From assembly GCA_029245345.1 (NCBI GenBank), contig JAQWPM010000017.1, forward strand, positions 1 through 64,000: DNA of 64,000 nucleotides, given 5' to 3'. Position numbers and translations under genes: made by a program. Every line of letters begins with the position of its first letter. The first letter of the stretch is position 1. Shown here piece after piece: positions 14,722-25,334 of this stretch. Below the pieces are notes generated by a model. The model was not told the DNA's origin. It did not search any database and saw nothing but the letters and a program-made list of their open reading frames with translations. Source of the DNA: Longimicrobiales bacterium (GTDB taxonomy: Bacteria; Gemmatimonadota; Gemmatimonadetes; Longimicrobiales; Gaopeijiaceae).

Positions 14722-16641
14722 ATGCGTTATCGATCAGCCGCATCACTCCTCGCATTGATCGCGTTTCCGCTCTCGGCCTCGGCGCAGACCGGGACTGACA
14801 ACGGTGAGTGGCACGTCTACGGTGGCGATGACTTTGCCAGCAGCTATACGCCGCTGACGCAGATCGATGCGACCAACGCCTCGGAACTGGAGATCGCGTG
14901 GCGGTGGAACGCACGGAACTTCGGCCCGAATCCGTTCGCACGGACACAGACGACACCTCTAATGGTGGATGGCGTCCTCTACGCGACGGTGGGAATGCGC
15001 CGCAGCGTCGTCGCCATCGCTGCTGGTACGGGTGAGACGCTGTGGACGTGGCGAGTCGACGAGGGCGAGCGGCTCGGGGCTGCACCGCGAGCGAACTCGG
15101 GACGTGGGGTCTCCTACTGGCAGGACGATTCCGGCAACGGCCGCATCATCGTGGTGACTCCCGGATATCAGATGGTGGCGCTCGATCCGCATTCCGGGCA
15201 ACAGATCGAAGGCTTCGGTGAGGGCGGGGTCGTCGACCTGATGGGCCAACACCGTTCGCGGGACGGGATCGACATGGTGGGCTCGGTGGGAGCGAGTTCT
15301 CCCGCGACCGTCGCGGGGGACGTGCTCGTCGTCGGATCGGCGCATCACATCGGCATGCGGCCGCCCTCCAAGACCAACACACCCGGCGACATCCGCGGCT
15401 ACGACGCTCAGAGCGGAGAACTCCTGTGGACGTTCAAGACGATCCCGGAGCCCGGTGAATTCGGTGTCGACACGTGGGAGAACGAGTCGTGGTCCTACAC
15501 CGGCAATGCCGCCGCCTGGGCTCCCATTGCGTACGACCCCGAGTCCGGGTTCGTCTACGTGCCGACCGAGGCCGCCACGGGCGACTACTACGGCGGACAC
15601 CGACACGGGAACAACCTGTTCTCGACCAGCCTTGTCGCGCTCGACTCTAGGACCGGCGAGCGGGTGTGGCACTTCCAGACGATTCACCACGACATCTGGG
15701 ACTGGGACAACCCAACGTCTCCGATCCTCGCCGACCTCACCATCGACGGGGCGCCGCGCAAGATCGTGGCACAGATCACCAAGCAGGGCTTCGTTTTTGT
15801 TTTCGACCGGCTGACAGGCGATCCGATTTGGCCCATCGAAGAGCGGGCGGTGCCTCAGACGGACATTCCCGGCGAGTGGACGTCGCCGACGCAGCCGATT
15901 CCGACCAAGCCCCTCCCCTTCGAACCACAGGGCTTCAGCGAGGACGACCTCATCGACTTCACGCCCGAGATCAAGGCGCGGGCGGCTGAGATCGCTTCTG
16001 CCTATCGGATGGGTCCGCTCTACACGCCGGCCTCGCTCCAGGACGCGCCCGATGGGACGGCGGGCGTATTGTCGCTGCCCAGCTCGACCGGCGGCGCCAA
16101 CTGGGAAGGCGGGGCGCTCGACCCAGAGACGGGCTTCCTGTACATCGGCTCCGCCACGGCTCCTTCGGTTCTCGCCCTGATCGAGGGCGGAGACCGCTCC
16201 GACATGGACTACATCGCGGGTTTCGGCCGCGCGTCGATAGCCCCTGGCGTTTCGATCGTGAAGCCTCCCTGGGGTCGCATCACGGCGATCGACCTCACCA
16301 CCGGCGACCATGCGTGGATGATCGCGAACGGGGACACACCGCCTCATGTGGCCGAGCGCCTCGAGCTCGACCCGGCGACGATCCCGCGGACCGGCAAGCC
16401 CTCACGAGCAGGGTTGTTGGTGACCGGCTCCCTGTTGTTCGCCGGCGAAGGCATGTCAGGCGACGCGATCCTCCGCGCTCACGACAAGGCGACCGGCCAA
16501 ATTATGGCCGAACTCGAGCTCCCAGGGGCTCAGATCGGCCTGCCGATGTCGTACATGCACGAAGGCAAGCAGTACATCATCGTGGCGGTCAGCGCACGCG
16601 GCGAGCCTGCCGAGATCGTGGCGTTCGCCCTGCCCAACTGA
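14722..16641 (+). CDS. PQQ-dependent dehydrogenase, glucose-dehydrogenase-like branch
   Basis: From the ATG at 14722 the product is 639 residues with a signal peptide cleaved near ASA-QT (21). The body is an eight-bladed quinoprotein propeller with repeated Trp-docking motifs (ALDSRTGERVWHFQTIHHDIWDWD). The latter resembles the active-site block of quinoprotein glucose dehydrogenases (QTxHHDLWDYD). No vicinal Cys pair is present, unlike the second quinoprotein at 20015. It oxidises an alcohol, aldose or aldehyde in the periplasm and passes electrons to a cytochrome or quinone. It lies 154 bases before the cytochrome/copper operon. The substrate is not predictable. Confidence 0.8.
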   Translation: MRYRSAASLLALIAFPLSASAQTGTDNGEWHVYGGDDFASSYTPLTQIDATNASELEIAWRWNARNFGPNPFARTQTTPLMVDGVLYATVGMRRSVVAIAAGTGETLWTWRVDEGERLGAAPRANSGRGVSYWQDDSGNGRIIVVTPGYQMVALDPHSGQQIEGFGEGGVVDLMGQHRSRDGIDMVGSVGASSPATVAGDVLVVGSAHHIGMRPPSKTNTPGDIRGYDAQSGELLWTFKTIPEPGEFGVDTWENESWSYTGNAAAWAPIAYDPESGFVYVPTEAATGDYYGGHRHGNNLFSTSLVALDSRTGERVWHFQTIHHDIWDWDNPTSPILADLTIDGAPRKIVAQITKQGFVFVFDRLTGDPIWPIEERAVPQTDIPGEWTSPTQPIPTKPLPFEPQGFSEDDLIDFTPEIKARAAEIASAYRMGPLYTPASLQDAPDGTAGVLSLPSSTGGANWEGGALDPETGFLYIGSATAPSVLALIEGGDRSDMDYIAGFGRASIAPGVSIVKPPWGRITAIDLTTGDHAWMIANGDTPPHVAERLELDPATIPRTGKPSRAGLLVTGSLLFAGEGMSGDAILRAHDKATGQIMAELELPGAQIGLPMSYMHEGKQYIIVAVSARGEPAEIVAFALPN

Positions 16642-16795
16642 GGCCCTTCGGATGAAATCGGCCTGGCGGCCGCAGTGCCCCCGGAGCCTTGATCCCCCAC
16701 GCTCCCATCCCTAACATCGCTTCAGTTGCGGCGATTCCGGAGGACCTGTCGCACCCTCCCTGTAAGGCCCGCTCATCTGCACAGGAGTAGTACGA

Positions 16796-18205
16796 ATGCG
16801 GACATCGTGGACAGGTCTGAAGCCGACCGTCATAACGGTGATGGCTGTCGTCGTCGCCTTCGCCACCCTCGCTGCGCGACCCATGAGCGCCCAAGACGGC
16901 ACCGGCGACGCTGGGGTGACGTTTACGCGAGACATCGCACCCATCCTTCAGCGAAGCTGCGTTAAATGCCATCGCCCGAACGGCGTGGCACCCATGTCGC
17001 TCGTTGAGTATGACGACGTCCAGCCCTACGCCAGGCAGATCATGCGTCGCACTGGGATTCGCGACCGAATGGGTACGATGCCACCCTGGTACGTCGAGAA
17101 GGACATCGGCATCCAACATTTCAAAGACGACCCATCGCTGACTGACCTGGAAGTCGCAGCCATCGCGCAGTGGGCTCGCGGCGGGACTCCCATGGGCGAC
17201 CCGGCACACATGCCGCCCGCTCTGGAGTTTTCGGATGAAGCGATCTGGACCCTTGGGGAGCCGGATCTTGTGGTCAGTACGCAAGAATTTCTCGTGAAGG
17301 GCGACGCTCCAGATTGGTGGGGGGACATCACGAGTATTCCCACGGGGCTCACCGAAGACCGGTACGTAGCGTCCGTGGAGATCCGCGAGATCAACGATGT
17401 GCGCGAAAACCGAGATAGTGAACGCCAGACGGTGGGTGGGCTCTACGTCTTCCACCACATGGTGTGGAGCACACGCGTGCTCGACGACCCGGACGTGAGG
17501 CCCGTGGGGTGGCCGGTCCACGAGGTAGGTCGGAACCCCGACATCTTTGACGACGAGGGTGGCCAATTGCTGAAGGCCGGATCGAGCGTCGTTTCCGGTT
17601 CCACGCATCTCCACTCGAACGGAAGCGATACGCGGGCGCGCCTCGAGATCGGATTCCGTTTCCATCCCCGCGACTACGAGCCGAAGTACCGCTCAGCTGG
17701 CTACGTGCTGGCCAATGGCTCGGACATCGACATTGAAGCTGGCAAGAAGGATCAGGAACTGCATGCGTACACCGTCCTCCAGCAGCACACCAAGATTGTG
17801 ACGTTCGAGCCACACTTGCATGCCCCCGGTGACCGCATGTGCCTTGAGGCGATTTGGGGCTTCAATGTCGAAACGATCTCGTGCGTGGGATACGACCACA
17901 ACTGGGTCCGGGGCTATGCCTTCGCGGACAACTATCAGCCGCTATTGCCCAAGGGCACTGTGCTCCACATCACCGGCTACATGGACAATACGGAAAGCAA
18001 CCGAAACATCGCCGATGCACGAAACTGGCAGGGCTCGGGCAACAGATCCGTGGCGAACATGTTCATTGATCTGGGTATGAGGCTCGCGCTCACAGACCAA
18101 CAGTTCCAGGCGGAAATGGCTAAGCGTAGGGAGAATCTCGATCTCGGCGTAAACGATCATGTGATCGGGTGCCCGCTGTGTATGGTCATTCCCGGGGGCC
18201 GTTAG
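16796..18205 (+). CDS. Cytochrome c plus copper type II monooxygenase-like protein
   Basis: The 469-residue exported protein has a signal peptide (MSAQ) and a single heme-binding CVKCH (55-59) in a planctomycete-type cytochrome c domain (DIAPILQRSCVKCHRPNGVA). A C-terminal domain follows with paired HxH motifs (STHLHSNG and EPHLHAPGDRM) as in ascorbate-dependent (DBH/PHM-like) copper monooxygenases. The fusion would deliver electrons from heme to copper within one chain. A close paralogue is at 23976. The stop abuts the ATG of the next gene, so the two are coupled. Whether it hydroxylates a substrate or is only a redox carrier is unknown. Confidence 0.75.
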   Translation: MRTSWTGLKPTVITVMAVVVAFATLAARPMSAQDGTGDAGVTFTRDIAPILQRSCVKCHRPNGVAPMSLVEYDDVQPYARQIMRRTGIRDRMGTMPPWYVEKDIGIQHFKDDPSLTDLEVAAIAQWARGGTPMGDPAHMPPALEFSDEAIWTLGEPDLVVSTQEFLVKGDAPDWWGDITSIPTGLTEDRYVASVEIREINDVRENRDSERQTVGGLYVFHHMVWSTRVLDDPDVRPVGWPVHEVGRNPDIFDDEGGQLLKAGSSVVSGSTHLHSNGSDTRARLEIGFRFHPRDYEPKYRSAGYVLANGSDIDIEAGKKDQELHAYTVLQQHTKIVTFEPHLHAPGDRMCLEAIWGFNVETISCVGYDHNWVRGYAFADNYQPLLPKGTVLHITGYMDNTESNRNIADARNWQGSGNRSVANMFIDLGMRLALTDQQFQAEMAKRRENLDLGVNDHVIGCPLCMVIPGGR

Positions 18206-19186
18206 ATGATCGGATTCAGGGCGAAAGGTTGGGTGGCCGGAGTCATGGCCATTGCAGCTCTGGCGATGGGTCATCCGGCGAACGCCCAACTCACGTACCA
18301 GCACGGGCAAAACGTCTCTCCGGCCTTTGAAGGCTGGGAGTCGAACGACGACGGCACGTTCAATCTCGTATTCGGCTATATGAACAGAAATTGGAACGAA
18401 GAACTGGACGTCGCGACCGGACCAGAGAATAGCTTCTCGCCCGGCCCAGCGGATCAAGGTCAACCCACCCACTTCAGGCCGCGCCGTAATCGATTCGTGT
18501 TCAAGATCCAGGTCCCGGCCGACTTCGGTGATCAGGAACTCGAGTGGACGCTCACGACGCAGGGACAGACGGAGTACGCATACGGATCGCTCCGCTTGGA
18601 CTACAAGCTCGACAACATCGTGATCGCTTCAGAGACGGGCGCACTCGGTATCGGTGCGAGTACCGCCTCAACGAGGGCGAACACACCTCCCGTCCTCACG
18701 GTCGAGGGGGACGCCGTGCGGAACGTTCGCGTTGGTGAGCCAGTCACGTTGATCGCGACAATCGCGGATGATGGCTTGGAGCGGGCGATCGAGGATTCAC
18801 GTCGGCGTGCAGAGCGAGCTGCGGCAGCTGCCGCGGAGTTGGACGGCCCACCCATGCTCACGTCGCGACAGTTGCGACCACCCACCCGCATCACGGTCAG
18901 CAAAGTCGTTGCGACGCATCTGGCTTGGTTCGTCTATCGAGCGGACGGCCCCGTCGCCTTCGATCCTCCTCAGGTGAAGACGTGGGAGGACACACGGGCC
19001 GGAGCGAACTCGCCATGGGCTCCACTCTTTATGCCGCCACCGGTTCCTGAGGATGGCCGGTGGGAGGTCACCGTCACCTTCGACCGACCGGGCACCTACA
19101 TACTCCGCGGTCGAGCAGACGACGGCGCGTTGTACCACGACCAGGATGTGACGATCATCGTGAGGCCTATCACTTTCCCGCATTAG
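18206..19186 (+). CDS. Secreted protein of the FGYMNRN family, copy 1
   Basis: The 326-residue protein has a clear signal peptide ending near ANAQ. The mature part opens with NDDGTFNLVFGYMNRNWNE, which matches the paralogue at 22930 (NEDGTYTLSFGFMNRNDED) in position and spacing. Both then have a PADFG/PADFEG beta block and end with a PGTYILRGRADDG or PGQYVIRVRVDNF strand, suggesting tandem Ig-like beta domains. There are no catalytic motifs and no Cys pairs. It begins directly after the cytochrome/copper gene stop, so it is probably a partner of that enzyme. Function unknown. Confidence 0.7.
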   Translation: MIGFRAKGWVAGVMAIAALAMGHPANAQLTYQHGQNVSPAFEGWESNDDGTFNLVFGYMNRNWNEELDVATGPENSFSPGPADQGQPTHFRPRRNRFVFKIQVPADFGDQELEWTLTTQGQTEYAYGSLRLDYKLDNIVIASETGALGIGASTASTRANTPPVLTVEGDAVRNVRVGEPVTLIATIADDGLERAIEDSRRRAERAAAAAAELDGPPMLTSRQLRPPTRITVSKVVATHLAWFVYRADGPVAFDPPQVKTWEDTRAGANSPWAPLFMPPPVPEDGRWEVTVTFDRPGTYILRGRADDGALYHDQDVTIIVRPITFPH

Positions 19187-19232
19187 TCGGCTGCAGCCAC
19201 ACTCGTGCGGGGCGACACCAACAGAGACTGCC

Positions 19233-20018
19233 ATGCCGCGACTTCGCCGGCTATTCCTTTCCGCACTCGCTGCGCTCCTGCTTGTGTTCAGCTTCACGAG
19301 AGATGTTGCCGCACAAGCGCTCGGTGACCACCAGTACACGAGTGCCGCCATCGAGGCGGGCTCCCGTGTCTATACATCCGAGTGCGCGCTGTGCCATGGC
19401 GCGAACGGCGACGAAGAAGACGCGATTAACCTCCGCCTTGGACAGTTCCGACGGGCACAATCGGACCAAGACCTCCGCGACGTAATCACTGGCGGGATCG
19501 GTGGCGGTCGCATGCCTGCGTTCGACCTGCAGCCGGACGAACTCGTTGGCATCGTCGCATACATCCGTGCCGGATTCGACGCGAGCGGCGTGGCGGTAAA
19601 GGTCGGCGACGCAGCACGCGGTGAGGAGTTGTTCGGTGGAGATGGAGGCTGCGCGTCGTGCCATCGTGTGAACGGCCGGGGGCCCTACTTGGGCCCGGAC
19701 CTCAGCGACATCGGAGCCATTCGCACGCCGGCCGCTTTGCAGCGCGCTCTGCTCGATCCAGATGCCGCGCTTCGCCCTATCGACCGACCCATTCGAGCCG
19801 TGACCCGGGACGGCGAGACGATTCGTGGTCGACGCCTCAACGAGGACACCTACACGGTGCAGCTCATCGACTCGCAACAGCGGTTGCTCTCACTCGTCAA
19901 AGCCGATCTGACGGAGTACGAAGTCAGCAGCACCTCGGACAAGAGGCCGACCACGCTCTCGGCGGACGCTGTGGCGGATCTCATAGGCTATCTCCTGACA
20001 CTGAGGGGCATCCGATGA
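19233..20018 (+). CDS. Exported diheme cytochrome c
   Basis: The 261-residue protein has a signal peptide (DVAAQ) and two class I heme sites: CALCH (51-55), followed by the axial Met region GGGRMPAF (90-97), and CASCH (140-144), followed by a long C-terminal sheet domain. The second half fits the planctomycete-type heme-binding domain (GLRG...T-x-DG-x-x-x-GR). Its stop overlaps the start of the quinoprotein alcohol dehydrogenase (ATGA), so it is the natural electron acceptor of that enzyme. Confidence 0.85.
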   Translation: MPRLRRLFLSALAALLLVFSFTRDVAAQALGDHQYTSAAIEAGSRVYTSECALCHGANGDEEDAINLRLGQFRRAQSDQDLRDVITGGIGGGRMPAFDLQPDELVGIVAYIRAGFDASGVAVKVGDAARGEELFGGDGGCASCHRVNGRGPYLGPDLSDIGAIRTPAALQRALLDPDAALRPIDRPIRAVTRDGETIRGRRLNEDTYTVQLIDSQQRLLSLVKADLTEYEVSSTSDKRPTTLSADAVADLIGYLLTLRGIR

Positions 20019-21676
20019 ACAGCTTCCAACGCGCGGCAACGGCGGGAGTCTTCGCCCTTCTCGCGCTCGGCGCCGCCGTGAATGCTGGCGCCCAAGTCCC
20101 CTACGAGCGGATTTTGAACGCGGCAGACGAGCCCGAGAACTGGCTGACCTACCACGGCTCGTATTCGAGTCTGCGCTTCAGCACCTTGAGTCAGATCACC
20201 ACGGAGAACGTCACAGATCTGGAGTCGAAGTGGGTGCTCCAAAACCAGGTGTTCGGGGCTTGGCAGTCGAACCCCATCGTGGTCGACGGCATCATGTACA
20301 TCACCGAGCGTCCCAACGACGTGATGGCGGTAGACGCCGTGACGGGCCGCGTCTTTTGGATGTATCGTCACACAAACGATGAAGCTGCTGCCGTCTGCTG
20401 CGGGGCCAACAACCGCGGCGTGGCCGTTCTGGACGACAAGGTTTTCATGGGCACGCTGGATGCCCGCCTCATCGCTCTGGATCGGACGAACGGACAGCCT
20501 CTGTGGGACATCGAGGTTGCCGACGTAAATCAGGCGTACTCGATCACGATGGCCCCGCTCGTCGTGAAGGACAAAGTGCTCGTCGGCGTGGGCGGTGGTG
20601 AGTTCGGGATTCGTGGATTCATAGCAGCCTACGACGCTGATACCGGTGAGGAAGCATGGCGCTTTTACACGATTCCCGGCCCGGGTGAACCTGGACACGA
20701 GACATGGGAGGGAGACGACTGGGAGCACGGTGGTGCACCCATCTGGCTCACGGGTTCATACGACGCCGAGCTCAACCTGACGTACTGGGGTGTCGGGAAT
20801 CCCGGTCCCGACTGGAATCCCGGCCAGCGACCGGGCGACAACCTCTACTCGGACGCCGTCATCGCGCTCAACCCGGACACCGGGGAATTGGACTGGTACT
20901 TCCAATTCACGCCCAACGACGGGTATGACTACGACGCAGTCCAAGTACCCCTCCTCGTGGACATGGAGTGGGAGGGCGAAGCTCGGAAGTTGATGCTGTG
21001 GGCGAACCGCAATGGCTACTTCTACGTGCTGGACCGGACAGATGGAGAGTTCCTCTCAGGGACTCCCTTCGTGAAGGTCAATTGGTCCAGCGGGCTCGAC
21101 GAAAATGGCCGGCCCATCCAAACGCCACAGCCCGCCGGCGCACCGACCTGGCCAGGCAACCAGGGCGGCACCAACTGGTACCCGCCGTCCTATAGCCCAC
21201 GGACGGAACTCTTCTACTTCGCCGCGTGGGAGGACTACGCGAGCATCTACGAGCCCGAAGAGTCTGTGTACCGCGAGGGCCGCATGTTCCTGGGCGGAGG
21301 CTTCCGAGTGCTCTCACCCACGGAGGGCGCGCCAACCATCGGAATCGGGCGCAGCACACCCATCAACAACTGGACCGACGCGGTCGGTCACGGTTCGGTG
21401 ATCGCCATGGATCCTCGCACGGGTGAAGCGAAGTGGAAGTACGACCAGTTCGACGTCAGTGACAGCGGCATGCTGACCACGGAGACAGATCTGCTCTTCA
21501 CGGGTGGGCGCGAGGGTTATTTCCACGCGCTCGACGCACGCACCGGTGCGCTTCTGTGGAAGGCGAGCCTCGGAGCCCAGATCGTGATGGCCCCAATCAC
21601 CTTCATGGTGGACGGCAAGCAGTATGTGTCCGTCATTTCGGGGCACACGCTTGTGACCTTCGGACTTCGGGACTGA
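20015..21676 (+). CDS. PQQ-dependent alcohol dehydrogenase
   Basis: The ATG at 20015 sits 4 bases inside the cytochrome gene, behind a GAGGGG ribosome binding site. The 553-residue product has a signal peptide (NAGAQ) and quinoprotein propeller repeats. The vicinal disulfide pair Cys128-Cys129 (AAVCCGANNRG) covers PQQ in methanol/ethanol dehydrogenases. The GNPGPDWNPGQRPGDN block contains the catalytic Asp. It oxidises primary alcohols in the periplasm using PQQ and a metal ion. I cannot settle calcium versus lanthanide from the sequence by eye. Translational coupling to the diheme cytochrome supports direct electron transfer. Confidence 0.85.
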   Translation: MNSFQRAATAGVFALLALGAAVNAGAQVPYERILNAADEPENWLTYHGSYSSLRFSTLSQITTENVTDLESKWVLQNQVFGAWQSNPIVVDGIMYITERPNDVMAVDAVTGRVFWMYRHTNDEAAAVCCGANNRGVAVLDDKVFMGTLDARLIALDRTNGQPLWDIEVADVNQAYSITMAPLVVKDKVLVGVGGGEFGIRGFIAAYDADTGEEAWRFYTIPGPGEPGHETWEGDDWEHGGAPIWLTGSYDAELNLTYWGVGNPGPDWNPGQRPGDNLYSDAVIALNPDTGELDWYFQFTPNDGYDYDAVQVPLLVDMEWEGEARKLMLWANRNGYFYVLDRTDGEFLSGTPFVKVNWSSGLDENGRPIQTPQPAGAPTWPGNQGGTNWYPPSYSPRTELFYFAAWEDYASIYEPEESVYREGRMFLGGGFRVLSPTEGAPTIGIGRSTPINNWTDAVGHGSVIAMDPRTGEAKWKYDQFDVSDSGMLTTETDLLFTGGREGYFHALDARTGALLWKASLGAQIVMAPITFMVDGKQYVSVISGHTLVTFGLRD

Positions 21677-21689
21677 CGGTGTAGGGTCG

Positions 21690-22766
21690 TCAGCGTCTCG
21701 GCATGCCAGGGATCGCCATGAGCCTCCGGCCACCCGCCAGGTGCGCGGCGTGTCCGCTCGAGTTGCGTTCGTTCTCCGTCATCACCGCGAGTGGGAACCC
21801 CCCCTGGAAGAAAATGCCGTGACGGAGTGCCATGATTTCCCACTCGTCTTGGTCGGTCACGGCGCGGTCCGCCTCCATGAAGAAGTCGACGGCCGCGTCC
21901 ACAGCTCCGGGTGCGTCGACGGCTCCGGGTGATGCCAGCACGTCCGCGACCACCTCCAACAGCATGCTCAGGTTGTCCCAGATCATCGCCGATTCAGGGC
22001 TCAGCCAGATGAAGCCAGGAGCGATCGCCGGAGCCAAAGGGAGTTCGCTGGGGAAGGACTGGGGTGGCTCGCCATGGCTGAGCTTGGCGTGGTGGCGTGT
22101 GGCGACCGTGTCTACGCCGGCGAGGCGATCCGGACCTGGAGGCAGATCGGTCAAAGGCTCCGTCGTCGCGAGTCGCAGCCAGTGACCCGCCCAGAGTAGA
22201 CCGTCGAGATCGGGGTAGCCGGTCCGGAAGGCAAGCGCATAAGGGTGGCCGTATAGGACATCCATGTTCTTCGGCACATTCGGCAGAGCGGCTTCGGCGC
22301 GGCCCCGGTATACCCCCACCGCGGCGGACAGGGCTGCGTTTCGGTCCGTGACTGCGGGATCGGCAAGAATCGACAGAACCTCTCGCTGGAAAGCATGACC
22401 CCAGCGAATGATTCCTGCAGTGCGCGAACCGAGCGCCTCGTATCCGGCGTCCGCCACTCCTGCTACTTTCGCGGATCCCTCTTCACCCTGGACGAGCGAT
22501 GTGAGGCGCCCTACCAAGTCGGCCTCGAAGCCGGGCGTCGGGACCTCGCCGCCGCTCGCCCGGACGCTCTCTCCTTCACTGGCGAGCTCACCAAAGAGCA
22601 CACCATGCGCGCTCTCCAGGCGGCCGAGCAGATCGTAAAGCCCTGGGTGGTGGCGACGAAGCGCGTCCGCCTGTCCCAGTTCGCCCGCGTCCTGCCCCCT
22701 TGCCTCAGGGGCCGCCGCGGCGAGTAGGACAGCGGCGAGGCACACTGTTGAAACCCTTGGAAACAT
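21690..22766 (-). CDS. Exported protein of unknown function
   Basis: Starting at the internal ATG (22766), the product is 358 residues with a signal peptide (MFPRVSTVCLAAVLLAAAAPEARGQ). The rest is helical and Trp/His-containing (WAGHWLRLATTEPL, RHHAKLSHGEPP). No metal-binding or catalytic pattern is obvious. It converges with the alcohol dehydrogenase gene, with 13 bases between the stops, and diverges from the second FGYMNRN gene. It is the only gene of the redox block on the minus strand. Family not recognised. Confidence 0.65.
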   Translation of the reverse strand: MFPRVSTVCLAAVLLAAAAPEARGQDAGELGQADALRRHHPGLYDLLGRLESAHGVLFGELASEGESVRASGGEVPTPGFEADLVGRLTSLVQGEEGSAKVAGVADAGYEALGSRTAGIIRWGHAFQREVLSILADPAVTDRNAALSAAVGVYRGRAEAALPNVPKNMDVLYGHPYALAFRTGYPDLDGLLWAGHWLRLATTEPLTDLPPGPDRLAGVDTVATRHHAKLSHGEPPQSFPSELPLAPAIAPGFIWLSPESAMIWDNLSMLLEVVADVLASPGAVDAPGAVDAAVDFFMEADRAVTDQDEWEIMALRHGIFFQGGFPLAVMTENERNSSGHAAHLAGGRRLMAIPGMPRR

Positions 22767-22929
22767 AGGGAACCACCCACTCACATTGGCGCGTCAGACG
22801 AACGGCAAATCATGGGTCAGGCGCACGATGACGGCAACGGATAGCATTGGACTCCTTTCGCGCAGACGCCCGATCCCCAAAGTTGGCGCAGACCCCGGTG
22901 AGGCGCACAGAAGGTTAAGGAGGACCAAA

Positions 22930-23913
22930 GTGCAGGGACTCAAGATCACAATCACGCTGTCCGTTCTAGGAATGGCAACGCTTACCGTTGGTGTCGCCGC
23001 GCAGGACTGGACGCAGCGGGAGTTTCCTCTGGCGCCGTCCAACTCGAGCGACAACTTCGTCGCGCCCTACTTCGACGGGTTCTATCAGAACGAGGACGGC
23101 ACCTACACCCTCTCGTTCGGATTCATGAACCGGAACGATGAGGACCTGATTGAGATCGCACTCGGGGAGGACAACTTCATCGAGCCGGCCGAGTTCGATG
23201 GGGCACAGCCCACGTCGTTTCCGGTCGTGAGCTATACGCGATTGGGGTTGTTCGGTGGCCCACGGGAGCGTGGGGCTTTCGGCGTGGTGGTCCCAGCTGA
23301 CTTCGAAGGTGATGTCTGGTGGACTGTGACCACCGACGGATACACGACCCGCGTCCCCGGCAGGCTCGAGTCACCGGGTAGGATCATCAAGGGCGCCTAT
23401 GAGCTCAGCAGGGGCGCGATGGCCGCGGGATCTCTTCGTCCTGGGATCCGATTCGAGGAAGACGGCCCTGAGGTGGTGGGGATCGAAGGCATTCGATACT
23501 CCCAGACGCTCACGGCCTCCGTCGGTGAGCCCGTCGAGGTCCGCTTCTGGGCTGTCGACCGGGGCGAACGGGAGCTCGTGCCCGTGAATATGTCGCTCTG
23601 GAAGCACCAAGGGCCCGTGGGCGCCACGGTCGCGTTCGAGTCTTTGACGGAAGCGCCGGCGGGCGCGGCAGCGCCGCGACGAGGGTTCCGCGCCCATGGA
23701 CCCGGTCCGGTTCGAACCGGCGAGGCCGTGCTCCTTCCGACTGAGGGGGCGCAGGCGAACATGGGGCACTTCACGGCGATGTTCGACACGCCCGGTCAGT
23801 ACGTGATCCGGGTCCGGGTCGACAATTTCAACGCGGCAGATAGCGGCCCTGGTCTCCAGTGCTGTTGGTCGAACGGGTACGTGGTGGTGAGCGTGAATGA
23901 GGACAAATACTAG
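22930..23913 (+). CDS. Secreted protein of the FGYMNRN family, copy 2
   Basis: The GTG at 22930 is preferred over an in-frame ATG at 22786 because TTAAGGAGG stands 6 bases before it and the signal peptide (ITITLSVLGMATLTVGVAAQ) then begins at once. The 327-residue product parallels the protein at 18206: NEDGTYTLSFGFMNRNDED near the N-terminus, a VPADFEG block, and a final PGQYVIRVRVDNF strand. A C-terminal CC pair and an Ala/Pro-rich hinge are specific to this copy. It lies 62 bases before the second cytochrome/copper gene, mirroring the copy-1 pairing in reverse order. Function unknown. Confidence 0.75.
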   Translation: MQGLKITITLSVLGMATLTVGVAAQDWTQREFPLAPSNSSDNFVAPYFDGFYQNEDGTYTLSFGFMNRNDEDLIEIALGEDNFIEPAEFDGAQPTSFPVVSYTRLGLFGGPRERGAFGVVVPADFEGDVWWTVTTDGYTTRVPGRLESPGRIIKGAYELSRGAMAAGSLRPGIRFEEDGPEVVGIEGIRYSQTLTASVGEPVEVRFWAVDRGERELVPVNMSLWKHQGPVGATVAFESLTEAPAGAAAPRRGFRAHGPGPVRTGEAVLLPTEGAQANMGHFTAMFDTPGQYVIRVRVDNFNAADSGPGLQCCWSNGYVVVSVNEDKY

Positions 23914-23975
23914 AATGGCACAGGGCGTCGTCCGGAGCGGCGATGCCTGAGGCACGCTTTCGAGAGGAGTTGCAA

Positions 23976-25334
23976 ATGCACGGATCCAATCATCAGGTGA
24001 TGTCGATGAGTCGCACGACGGGTCTGCTCGTCCTGCTTGCGGGATTCGGGCTGGCCGGGCACGGCGAGCTCGTGGGGCAAACCACTGGGCCGAGTCTCGA
24101 GCACGGCAGCGATCTGACCTTCACGAAGGACATCGCGCCGATTCTCCAGGAGAACTGCCAGGTCTGCCATCAGCCGGGCGCCATCGGGCCGATGTCGCTC
24201 CTCACCTATCAGGACGCGCGGCGCTACGCCCGCCGGATCAGCCGGATGGTCGAATCCCGCGATATGCCGCCGTACCAGTACGATCCGGACGTCGGCATTC
24301 AGGACCTGAAGGAAGACTGGCGGATGAGCGACGAGAAGATTGCGACGATCACCGCCTGGGTAGCCGCGGGCTCCCCGGAGGGTGACCCGGCCGACATGCC
24401 TCCGCCGGTCGAGTGGCCTGACCCCGCCGAGTTCCGCCTCGCCGAGCGCTTTGGACCGCCGGACGTAATCGTGAAGTCCGACCCCTACGACGTTCCCGAG
24501 GTCGGTCAGGATCGGTGGTGGAAGCCCTTGGTGCCGGTGGGTGTCAACACCGAGCGTTGCATCATGGCGGTCGAGACCAAACCGTCCGTGGAAGGACGGG
24601 CGGTGGCGCACCACGCCAACTCCTCCTTCCGGGTCGACGGGGAGAGCGCCGGTCGCCTCTCGGAGTACGCGCTGGGCAAGGTTGGTGAGATTGTCCCGGA
24701 CGGCGCGTGCCGGAAGCTGCCTGCCGACGCCAGCGTGGCCTTCGATATCCACTACTGGCCGAATGGCGTGGAGCTAGAAGATGATCAGGTGGAGATCGGC
24801 ATCTGGTTCCAGCCTGAGGAGTACGAGTCGGAGTACCAACAGACGCTGAGCCTATACTTCCTGGACGGGGGGGTCGGTGGGCGTGGCTACGACATCGCGC
24901 CTCACGGCACCCTGATGACCCAAGGCTTCCATTCGTTCGACACACCGGTGCGGATCGACTCGTTCCAGCCGCACGGCCACACGCGGCTCGTGGCGATGTC
25001 GCTCCAGGTCCTGCGCAAGAATGGGCGTCGGGAAACGGCGAGCATGGTCTCCAACTGGAGTGCGCTCTGGCATCACAGCCACATCTACGCAGACGACTCC
25101 GCCCCGCTCCTCGAGCCGGGCGATCAACTGATTGTGACCGGGTGGTACGACAATACCGAGAACAACCGCTACAACCCCGACCCGGACCAGTGGGTGGGCA
25201 TCGGCGACCGAACCGCCGACGAGATGTCGCACGCGTGGATCGCGGTGACGCATCTCGACGAAGCGGGGATGGAGAACATCAAGGCGGACCGTGAGTCCCG
25301 GCTGATCAGTGAGCAACCGGACGGGGCCAGGTAA
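23976..25334 (+). CDS. Second cytochrome c plus copper monooxygenase-like protein
   Basis: The start at 23976 is chosen over 23943 because AGAGGAG lies 6 bases before it. The 452-residue exported product has CQVCH (61-65) in DIAPILQENCQVCHQPGAIG. The copper-type domain has HYWPNG and the HxH motif FQPHGHTRL, with a WHHSHIY block near the C-terminus. Architecture matches the protein at 16796, but the His positions differ enough to suggest separate roles. A hairpin terminator follows. Electron flow from the PQQ dehydrogenases is plausible but inferred. Confidence 0.75.
   Translation: MHGSNHQVMSMSRTTGLLVLLAGFGLAGHGELVGQTTGPSLEHGSDLTFTKDIAPILQENCQVCHQPGAIGPMSLLTYQDARRYARRISRMVESRDMPPYQYDPDVGIQDLKEDWRMSDEKIATITAWVAAGSPEGDPADMPPPVEWPDPAEFRLAERFGPPDVIVKSDPYDVPEVGQDRWWKPLVPVGVNTERCIMAVETKPSVEGRAVAHHANSSFRVDGESAGRLSEYALGKVGEIVPDGACRKLPADASVAFDIHYWPNGVELEDDQVEIGIWFQPEEYESEYQQTLSLYFLDGGVGGRGYDIAPHGTLMTQGFHSFDTPVRIDSFQPHGHTRLVAMSLQVLRKNGRRETASMVSNWSALWHHSHIYADDSAPLLEPGDQLIVTGWYDNTENNRYNPDPDQWVGIGDRTADEMSHAWIAVTHLDEAGMENIKADRESRLISEQPDGAR

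Follow-up and report, generated by a model that had tools for sequence, protein, structure and literature searches.

What does the block of genes for quinoproteins, cytochromes and copper proteins at positions 14722 to 25334 of contig JAQWPM010000017.1 encode, and which part of it is conserved as a system? The contig belongs to a Longimicrobiales bacterium (assembly GCA_029245345.1), and the stretch of 64,000 nucleotides analysed here is called the window. A preliminary description had proposed that the block couples oxidation by pyrroloquinoline quinone (PQQ) enzymes with a copper-monooxygenase-like protein in one unit. We found that the conserved unit is not the whole block but a pair of genes, one for a predicted cytochrome c/copper protein (Cu) and the other for a secreted protein with an FGYMNRN-type motif (FGY). 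Our main reading, to which we give a probability of roughly 0.6, is that Cu-FGY is a two-gene periplasmic unit that consists of a dicopper monooxygenase with a fused cytochrome c and a dedicated FGY partner, with PQQ oxidation as a possible electron source; the monooxygenase would have the fold of peptidylglycine alpha-hydroxylating monooxygenase (PHM), which amidates hormones in animals. The features of the block are as follows.

14722..16641, forward strand: PQQa, ATG start; secreted quinoprotein-like propeller of the glucose/quinate-dehydrogenase-like branch, no Cys-Cys (CC) pair
16796..18205, forward strand: CuA; signal peptide, monoheme cytochrome c and predicted PHM-fold dicopper domain
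18206..19186, forward strand: FGYa; secreted beta-sandwich partner protein with FGYMNRN
19233..20018, forward strand: CYT; secreted diheme cytochrome c, two CXXCH motifs, PF00034/PF13442
20015..21676, forward strand: PQQb, ATG start; PQQ alcohol dehydrogenase, has the CC pair and a DxD motif of lanthanide type
21690..22784, reverse strand: MID364; open reading frame (ORF) of 364 aa between PQQb and FGYb, secreted-looking
22930..23913, forward strand: FGYb, GTG start at 22930 preceded by the strong ribosome-binding site AAGGAGGA; FGFMNRN
23976..25334 (ORF open from 23943), forward strand: CuB; second predicted heme c/PHM-type dicopper protein

The two quinoproteins (one with and one without the CC pair), two cytochrome c/copper fusions, two FG(Y/F)MNRN proteins and diheme cytochrome of the preliminary description are all present where it had placed them. 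By eye, a Sec-type signal sequence can be recognised at the start of every forward protein.

Pairing was counted in 12 genomes of the family of the window, and an FGY gene counted as paired if the same strand carried a Cu gene at a distance of no more than 600 bp. By this definition, 82 of the 91 FGY genes are paired (53 with the Cu gene first and 29 with the FGY gene first), as are 80 of the 88 strong Cu genes, and several of the unpaired cases are located at the end of a contig or next to a split match. Among the Cu genes of a weaker-scoring clade that includes a TPR-type paralogue, 1 of 17 is paired. The number of pairs per genome ranges from one to roughly twenty. A wider scan of 84,980 species genomes detected 538 relatives, and the loci of the best 80 were examined; these are biased to type A (the CuA-like type, see below), because the scan was run with A-type sequences only. 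In 78 of the 80, FGY is next to Cu (71 by the strict gap and 7 by overlapping ORFs in the locus maps), and these best 80 loci lie in Gemmatimonadota, Acidobacteriota and Gammaproteobacteria. The homologues of the pair therefore do not occur singly or without conserved order, which was the outcome that would have spoken against the preliminary description. The conservation of the gene set, which it had proposed to test, is borne out, across three phyla, for the Cu-FGY pair, whereas the PQQ and CYT genes are facultative.

The two members of the pair have also diverged together. The correlation between Cu distances and FGY distances is r 0.94 for type A and 0.93 for type B, and 0 of 500 shuffles gave a value as high; since the shuffles ignore phylogeny, the correlation shows that the two genes are inherited together rather than that their products are in contact. 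In G013, a genome of the same genus that is 94% complete, neither FGY nor, at E 1e-110, CuB had a match, so that the block is patchy even within the genus. Overall, the Cu-FGY unit appears to be widespread in uncultured bacteria and looks unstudied. As for the TPR-type paralogue mentioned above (G000:C21:260465-261631; L077:7548-9734, reverse strand, P0008), it is a protein of 729 aa with heme c and PHM-type ligands followed by TPR repeats; this type scores among the weaker Cu genes and is mostly without an FGY partner.

What, then, is the Cu protein? An AlphaFold2 model of CuA, built from a 42-sequence alignment (predicted local distance difference test score, pLDDT, 80.6), has the two-domain beta-sandwich core of PHM. 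Compared with known structures, the model gave Z scores of 17.8 against PHM and 17.6 against dopamine beta-hydroxylase (DBH), with 248-269 residues aligned; the best comparison (VIA) was with 6ala (Z 17.8, 248 aligned residues, 3.2 A), and Foldseek gave E 8.7e-10 to 4zel. The next fold after PHM and DBH was PNGase F, at Z 7.9. The link of the Cu proteins to PHM comes from this predicted fold and from the bridge proteins described below; a PDB sequence search with the Cu profiles gave cytochrome fragments and chance matches only.

The putative heme and copper ligands can be read from the sequences. CuA contains the heme motif C55xxC58H59 with Met95 as the axial residue, followed by candidate copper ligands, assigned by the PHM-type pattern, at His220, His221, His271, His340, His342 and Met422. 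The corresponding residues of CuB, numbered from 23943, are C72xxC75H76, Met108, His223, His224, His270, His344, His346 and Met428. The elements CXXCH, Met-Pro-Pro, HH, H, HxH and Met do not vary among the 42 sequences of mostly type A and the 17 of type B that were compared, and the copper elements follow the order and spacing of PHM. PF13442 was matched by 42 of the 42 members, many of them weakly, in agreement with a monoheme cytochrome c domain. In addition, several Gemmatimonadota proteins that score above the cut-off of the Pfam family Cu2_monoox_C (PF03712) align to the CuB profile over its entire length, with E down to 9e-76, and their heme and copper ligands are identical to those of CuB. 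Among these bridge proteins, one of those scanned has a Redoxin domain, one has a YceI domain, and one has heme and copper parts only.

As far as sequence and predicted fold can tell, the window Cu proteins thus carry a fused heme c and branch off at the margin of the PHM/DBH superfamily; we class them as a new outlying family rather than as PHM or DBH. The predicted fold and the invariant ligands are what the preliminary description had anticipated in speaking of a duplicated periplasmic redox module with copper-monooxygenase-like fusions. The Cu protein shares with PHM and DBH the predicted fold, the six CuH/CuM ligands in the same order, and secretion. However, identity to these enzymes is about 10-12%, and the Cu protein is bacterial, has an N-terminal cytochrome c domain and a near-obligate FGY, and gives no sign of ascorbate use or of peptide or dopamine substrates. 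DBH carries a DOMON domain where the Cu protein has cytochrome c. The bacterial PF03712 proteins and the heme-copper proteins fused to Redoxin, YceI or TPR domains have the same heme c plus PHM core, but many of these are fused to other domains, unlike the window Cu proteins. At L191:1402-3282 (reverse strand) and L194:1-1887 (forward strand), the heme-copper PHM-type part is joined to a YceI domain (isoprenoid-binding fold) or to a Redoxin domain, and such fusions may hint at quinol as an electron source.

The block contains two versions of the pair. CuA and CuB are 34% identical, and FGYa and FGYb are 33% identical over their shared part, which indicates true duplications rather than chance resemblance. 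In the tree, the type-A clade has a support of 100/100 and spans three phyla, and the type-B group is weaker (89/52). The window CuB groups with the CuB of G058 (locus L056) and that of a Pseudomonadales genome (locus L132) with a support of 100/99. In the window, as at L056 and L132, CuB has a type-A pair no further than about 10 kb away, and the A-plus-B locus is thus common to two phyla; most family orthologues of the window CuB have no A pair nearby. The genes at L132 are arranged as CuA-FGYa-CopC-CuB-FGYb, and L137 has a like layout. As a separate observation, a local tandem expansion is seen at L182 (G030:C9), where three CuB-type and two FGYb genes are packed into about 7 kb.

FGYa has an N-terminal FGYMNRN domain and an Ig-like C-terminal domain, and the FGY model (pLDDT 76) consists of beta-sandwich domains. 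Sequence searches with FGY in Pfam and in the PDB found no match. We also tried identification by fold and rejected it, since the search returned generic Ig-like sandwiches only (Z<8), which identify nothing. In the main reading, FGY would be secreted and dedicated to its own Cu protein, as a partner that most likely binds the substrate or forms a complex with that protein. Alternatively, FGY could be the substrate: each Cu enzyme would hydroxylate or oxidatively clip its own secreted FGY in a PHM-like manner, and the modified FGY would act outside the cell. That every Cu gene has one dedicated, co-diverging FGY without an enzyme-like family match would suit this explanation, as would the fact that animal PHM targets secreted peptides. 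However, the FGY C-termini are variable, none of them ends in glycine, and the conserved polar residues are inside the N-terminal domain; we consider the explanation improbable. Genes for peptidases and amidohydrolases near the pairs might also suggest a peptide substrate, but we did not use them, since genes of these kinds are widespread and one M28 context seems to represent just one block of synteny.

The monooxygenase reading implies the following course of electrons. The heme c of the Cu protein, presumably ligated by His and Met, would take electrons from a soluble periplasmic cytochrome c and pass them on to the two copper sites, CuH with three His and CuM with His-x-His and Met, and CuM would bind O2 and hydroxylate a C-H bond of the substrate. 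The built-in heme would in this way replace the free ascorbate used by animal PHM. Neighbouring genes are consistent with a copper enzyme in the periplasm that receives its electrons from cytochromes of the respiratory type. A CopC-family gene (one member was tested with Pfam) is found near Cu-FGY in 14 loci, mostly of Gammaproteobacteria and nearly always downstream. In Acidobacteria, Cu-FGY pairs (L131, L138, L142, L150) are directly upstream of the genes of a respiratory-type complex: a cytochrome c, a multiheme cytochrome, a molybdopterin/FeS protein and NrfD. The CopC neighbours could instead indicate copper handling, in which case the Cu protein would bind copper and heme but serve as a periplasmic copper store or sensor, or as an O2-removing oxidase, rather than as a monooxygenase. 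Both complete PHM-type sites are, however, invariant, including the CuM methionine, as expected for O2 chemistry, and the large expansion of the family suggests substrate diversity. A store, sensor or oxidase is accordingly a quite remote prospect in our judgement.

Where would the electrons come from at the window locus? PQQb scores 557.5 bits with TIGR03075 (cut-off 480) and so belongs to the methanol/ethanol family of PQQ alcohol dehydrogenases. Its nearest solved relative is PedH, a lanthanide-dependent PQQ ethanol dehydrogenase (6zcv; E 2e-104), with which it shares the CC pair and the aligned Glu, Asn, Asp and Asp+2, the last of these (DYD) being typical of lanthanide enzymes; the genome context differs from that of PedH. 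PQQa matches PF01011 with 595.9 bits (E 1.2e-178), and its best NCBIfam match, TIGR03074, reached 360.6 bits against a cut-off of 832.65 for glucose/quinate PQQ dehydrogenases. It seems to be a divergent glucose-dehydrogenase-like propeller, of which only the PF01011 propeller is certain. The source genome (G000) contains four further full-length PF01011 genes outside the block, which makes six PQQ-type genes in all. No PqqE over the cut-off was found in this genome; nor was PqqC found, but the control search for PqqC was silent everywhere, so that its absence is not shown. The cell may take up PQQ or make it with divergent genes. CYT and the PedH-like PQQb, perhaps with PQQa, would probably oxidise alcohols and feed the same cytochrome pool as that used by the Cu protein.

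Some results weigh against the proposed unit, with regard to both the copper domain and the PQQ enzymes. CuB (P0007) matches Cu2_monoox_C with E 0.011 and 15.6 bits, under the 23-bit cut-off; CuA (P0002) has no Pfam copper-domain match, and a weak match to PF03712 occurs in only 2 of the 42 family members. Of the 88 strong Cu genes of the related genomes, at least 9 have a PQQ gene within 2.5 kb, where chance would give at least about 3.5; in the wider scan, only 2 of the 80 loci have one nearby. Moreover, the window CuA falls outside the CYT-PQQb-CuA clade of the tree, and its relatives in the subclade have no PQQ neighbour, so the PQQ neighbourhood of the window may be a separate event.

The latter results suit a different explanation, in which Cu-FGY are heme-copper monooxygenases, PQQa, CYT and PQQb are unrelated neighbours, and the enzymes draw their electrons from quinol or from the respiratory pool of cytochrome c at large rather than specifically from alcohol oxidation by PQQ enzymes. 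PQQ genes are abundant in relatives of the source organism, with up to 56 matches per genome, and the Acidobacteria pairs adjoin the respiratory-type complex. On the other hand, PQQ genes are directly adjacent to the pair in several genera and families (L063, L067, L069-L071, L184-L186). The arrangement CYT-PQQb-CuA-FGYa recurs in L069-L071, the PQQ-Cu spacing is constant (669-675 bp) in four genomes, and PQQa is beside FGYb-CuB in several families (L056, L063, L184-L186, L189). We put the chance that the neighbours are unrelated at a little under even. In either case, PQQ genes are recurrent but optional neighbours of Cu-FGY, and their excess is modest, so that the proposal of PQQ oxidation and a copper protein in one conserved unit is not upheld. 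A related observation is the extreme expansion of PQQ-type propellers in G049, G032, G003 and G020, each of which has 42-56 PF01011 matches.

The layout of the genes also speaks against a single operon. CuA and FGYa abut as TAG-ATG with 0 nt between them, and CYT and PQQb overlap by ATGA; the overlapping or abutting gene ends noted previously are confined to these two junctions, and the remaining gaps between block genes are about 30-155 nt. CuB may start at ATG 23943 or at ATG 23976, the latter having the better ribosome-binding site. MID364 on the reverse strand splits the block into at least two forward units rather than one operon. A single conserved seven-gene operon was therefore rejected, PQQ and CYT being optional and the reverse-strand gene splitting the block. 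MID364 has no Pfam or NCBIfam match. Its homologues are found near FGYb-CuB in two relatives (L171 and L177), and in the window and in L177 the gene points away from FGYb; MID364 may belong to the B module.

Electron flow from PQQ to a copper monooxygenase is possible in view of a fungal precedent, the PQQ pyranose dehydrogenase of Coprinopsis (CcPDH), which drives lytic polysaccharide monooxygenases (LPMOs) (PMC5960967). In both cases, PQQ oxidation and a cytochrome would feed a copper monooxygenase, but there the fold is that of LPMO with a single copper and heme b is on the dehydrogenase, whereas here heme c is on the monooxygenase. The claim of an undescribed system therefore holds better for the Cu-FGY pair than for the PQQ coupling: a literature search limited to open-access PubMed Central (PMC) found nothing on a bacterial heme-PHM family, and the pair looks like the undescribed part.

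Methanotrophs, too, combine a copper monooxygenase (pMMO), a (lanthanide-type) PQQ alcohol dehydrogenase (MxaF/XoxF methanol dehydrogenase) and a cytochrome c (cytochrome cL) in one periplasm. However, pMMO is a membrane enzyme, whereas the Cu protein has a predicted soluble PHM fold, and the genes considered here do not form a conserved operon. At the window, PQQb might re-oxidise the hydroxylated product, which would close a two-electron loop. Extending the main reading further, one may imagine a modular heme-c-powered system of PHM-fold monooxygenases and FGY proteins, present in roughly twenty versions per genome, that at loci like that of the window is linked to a lanthanide-type PQQ alcohol dehydrogenase in a closed loop: an alcohol would be made and oxidised, and two electrons would return via cytochrome c, as in methanotrophy but with another fold and other substrates. 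This extension is speculative, and we think it unlikely in its full form.

PHM and DBH have been studied as animal enzymes that require ascorbate. A widespread bacterial branch with a fused heme for electron entry and a near-obligate partner would show how such enzymes run on respiratory electrons, and Cu-FGY would offer a soluble, self-contained system for C-H hydroxylation. It would also explain many unannotated proteins in marine, sponge-associated and soil-associated Gemmatimonadota, Acidobacteriota and Gammaproteobacteria.

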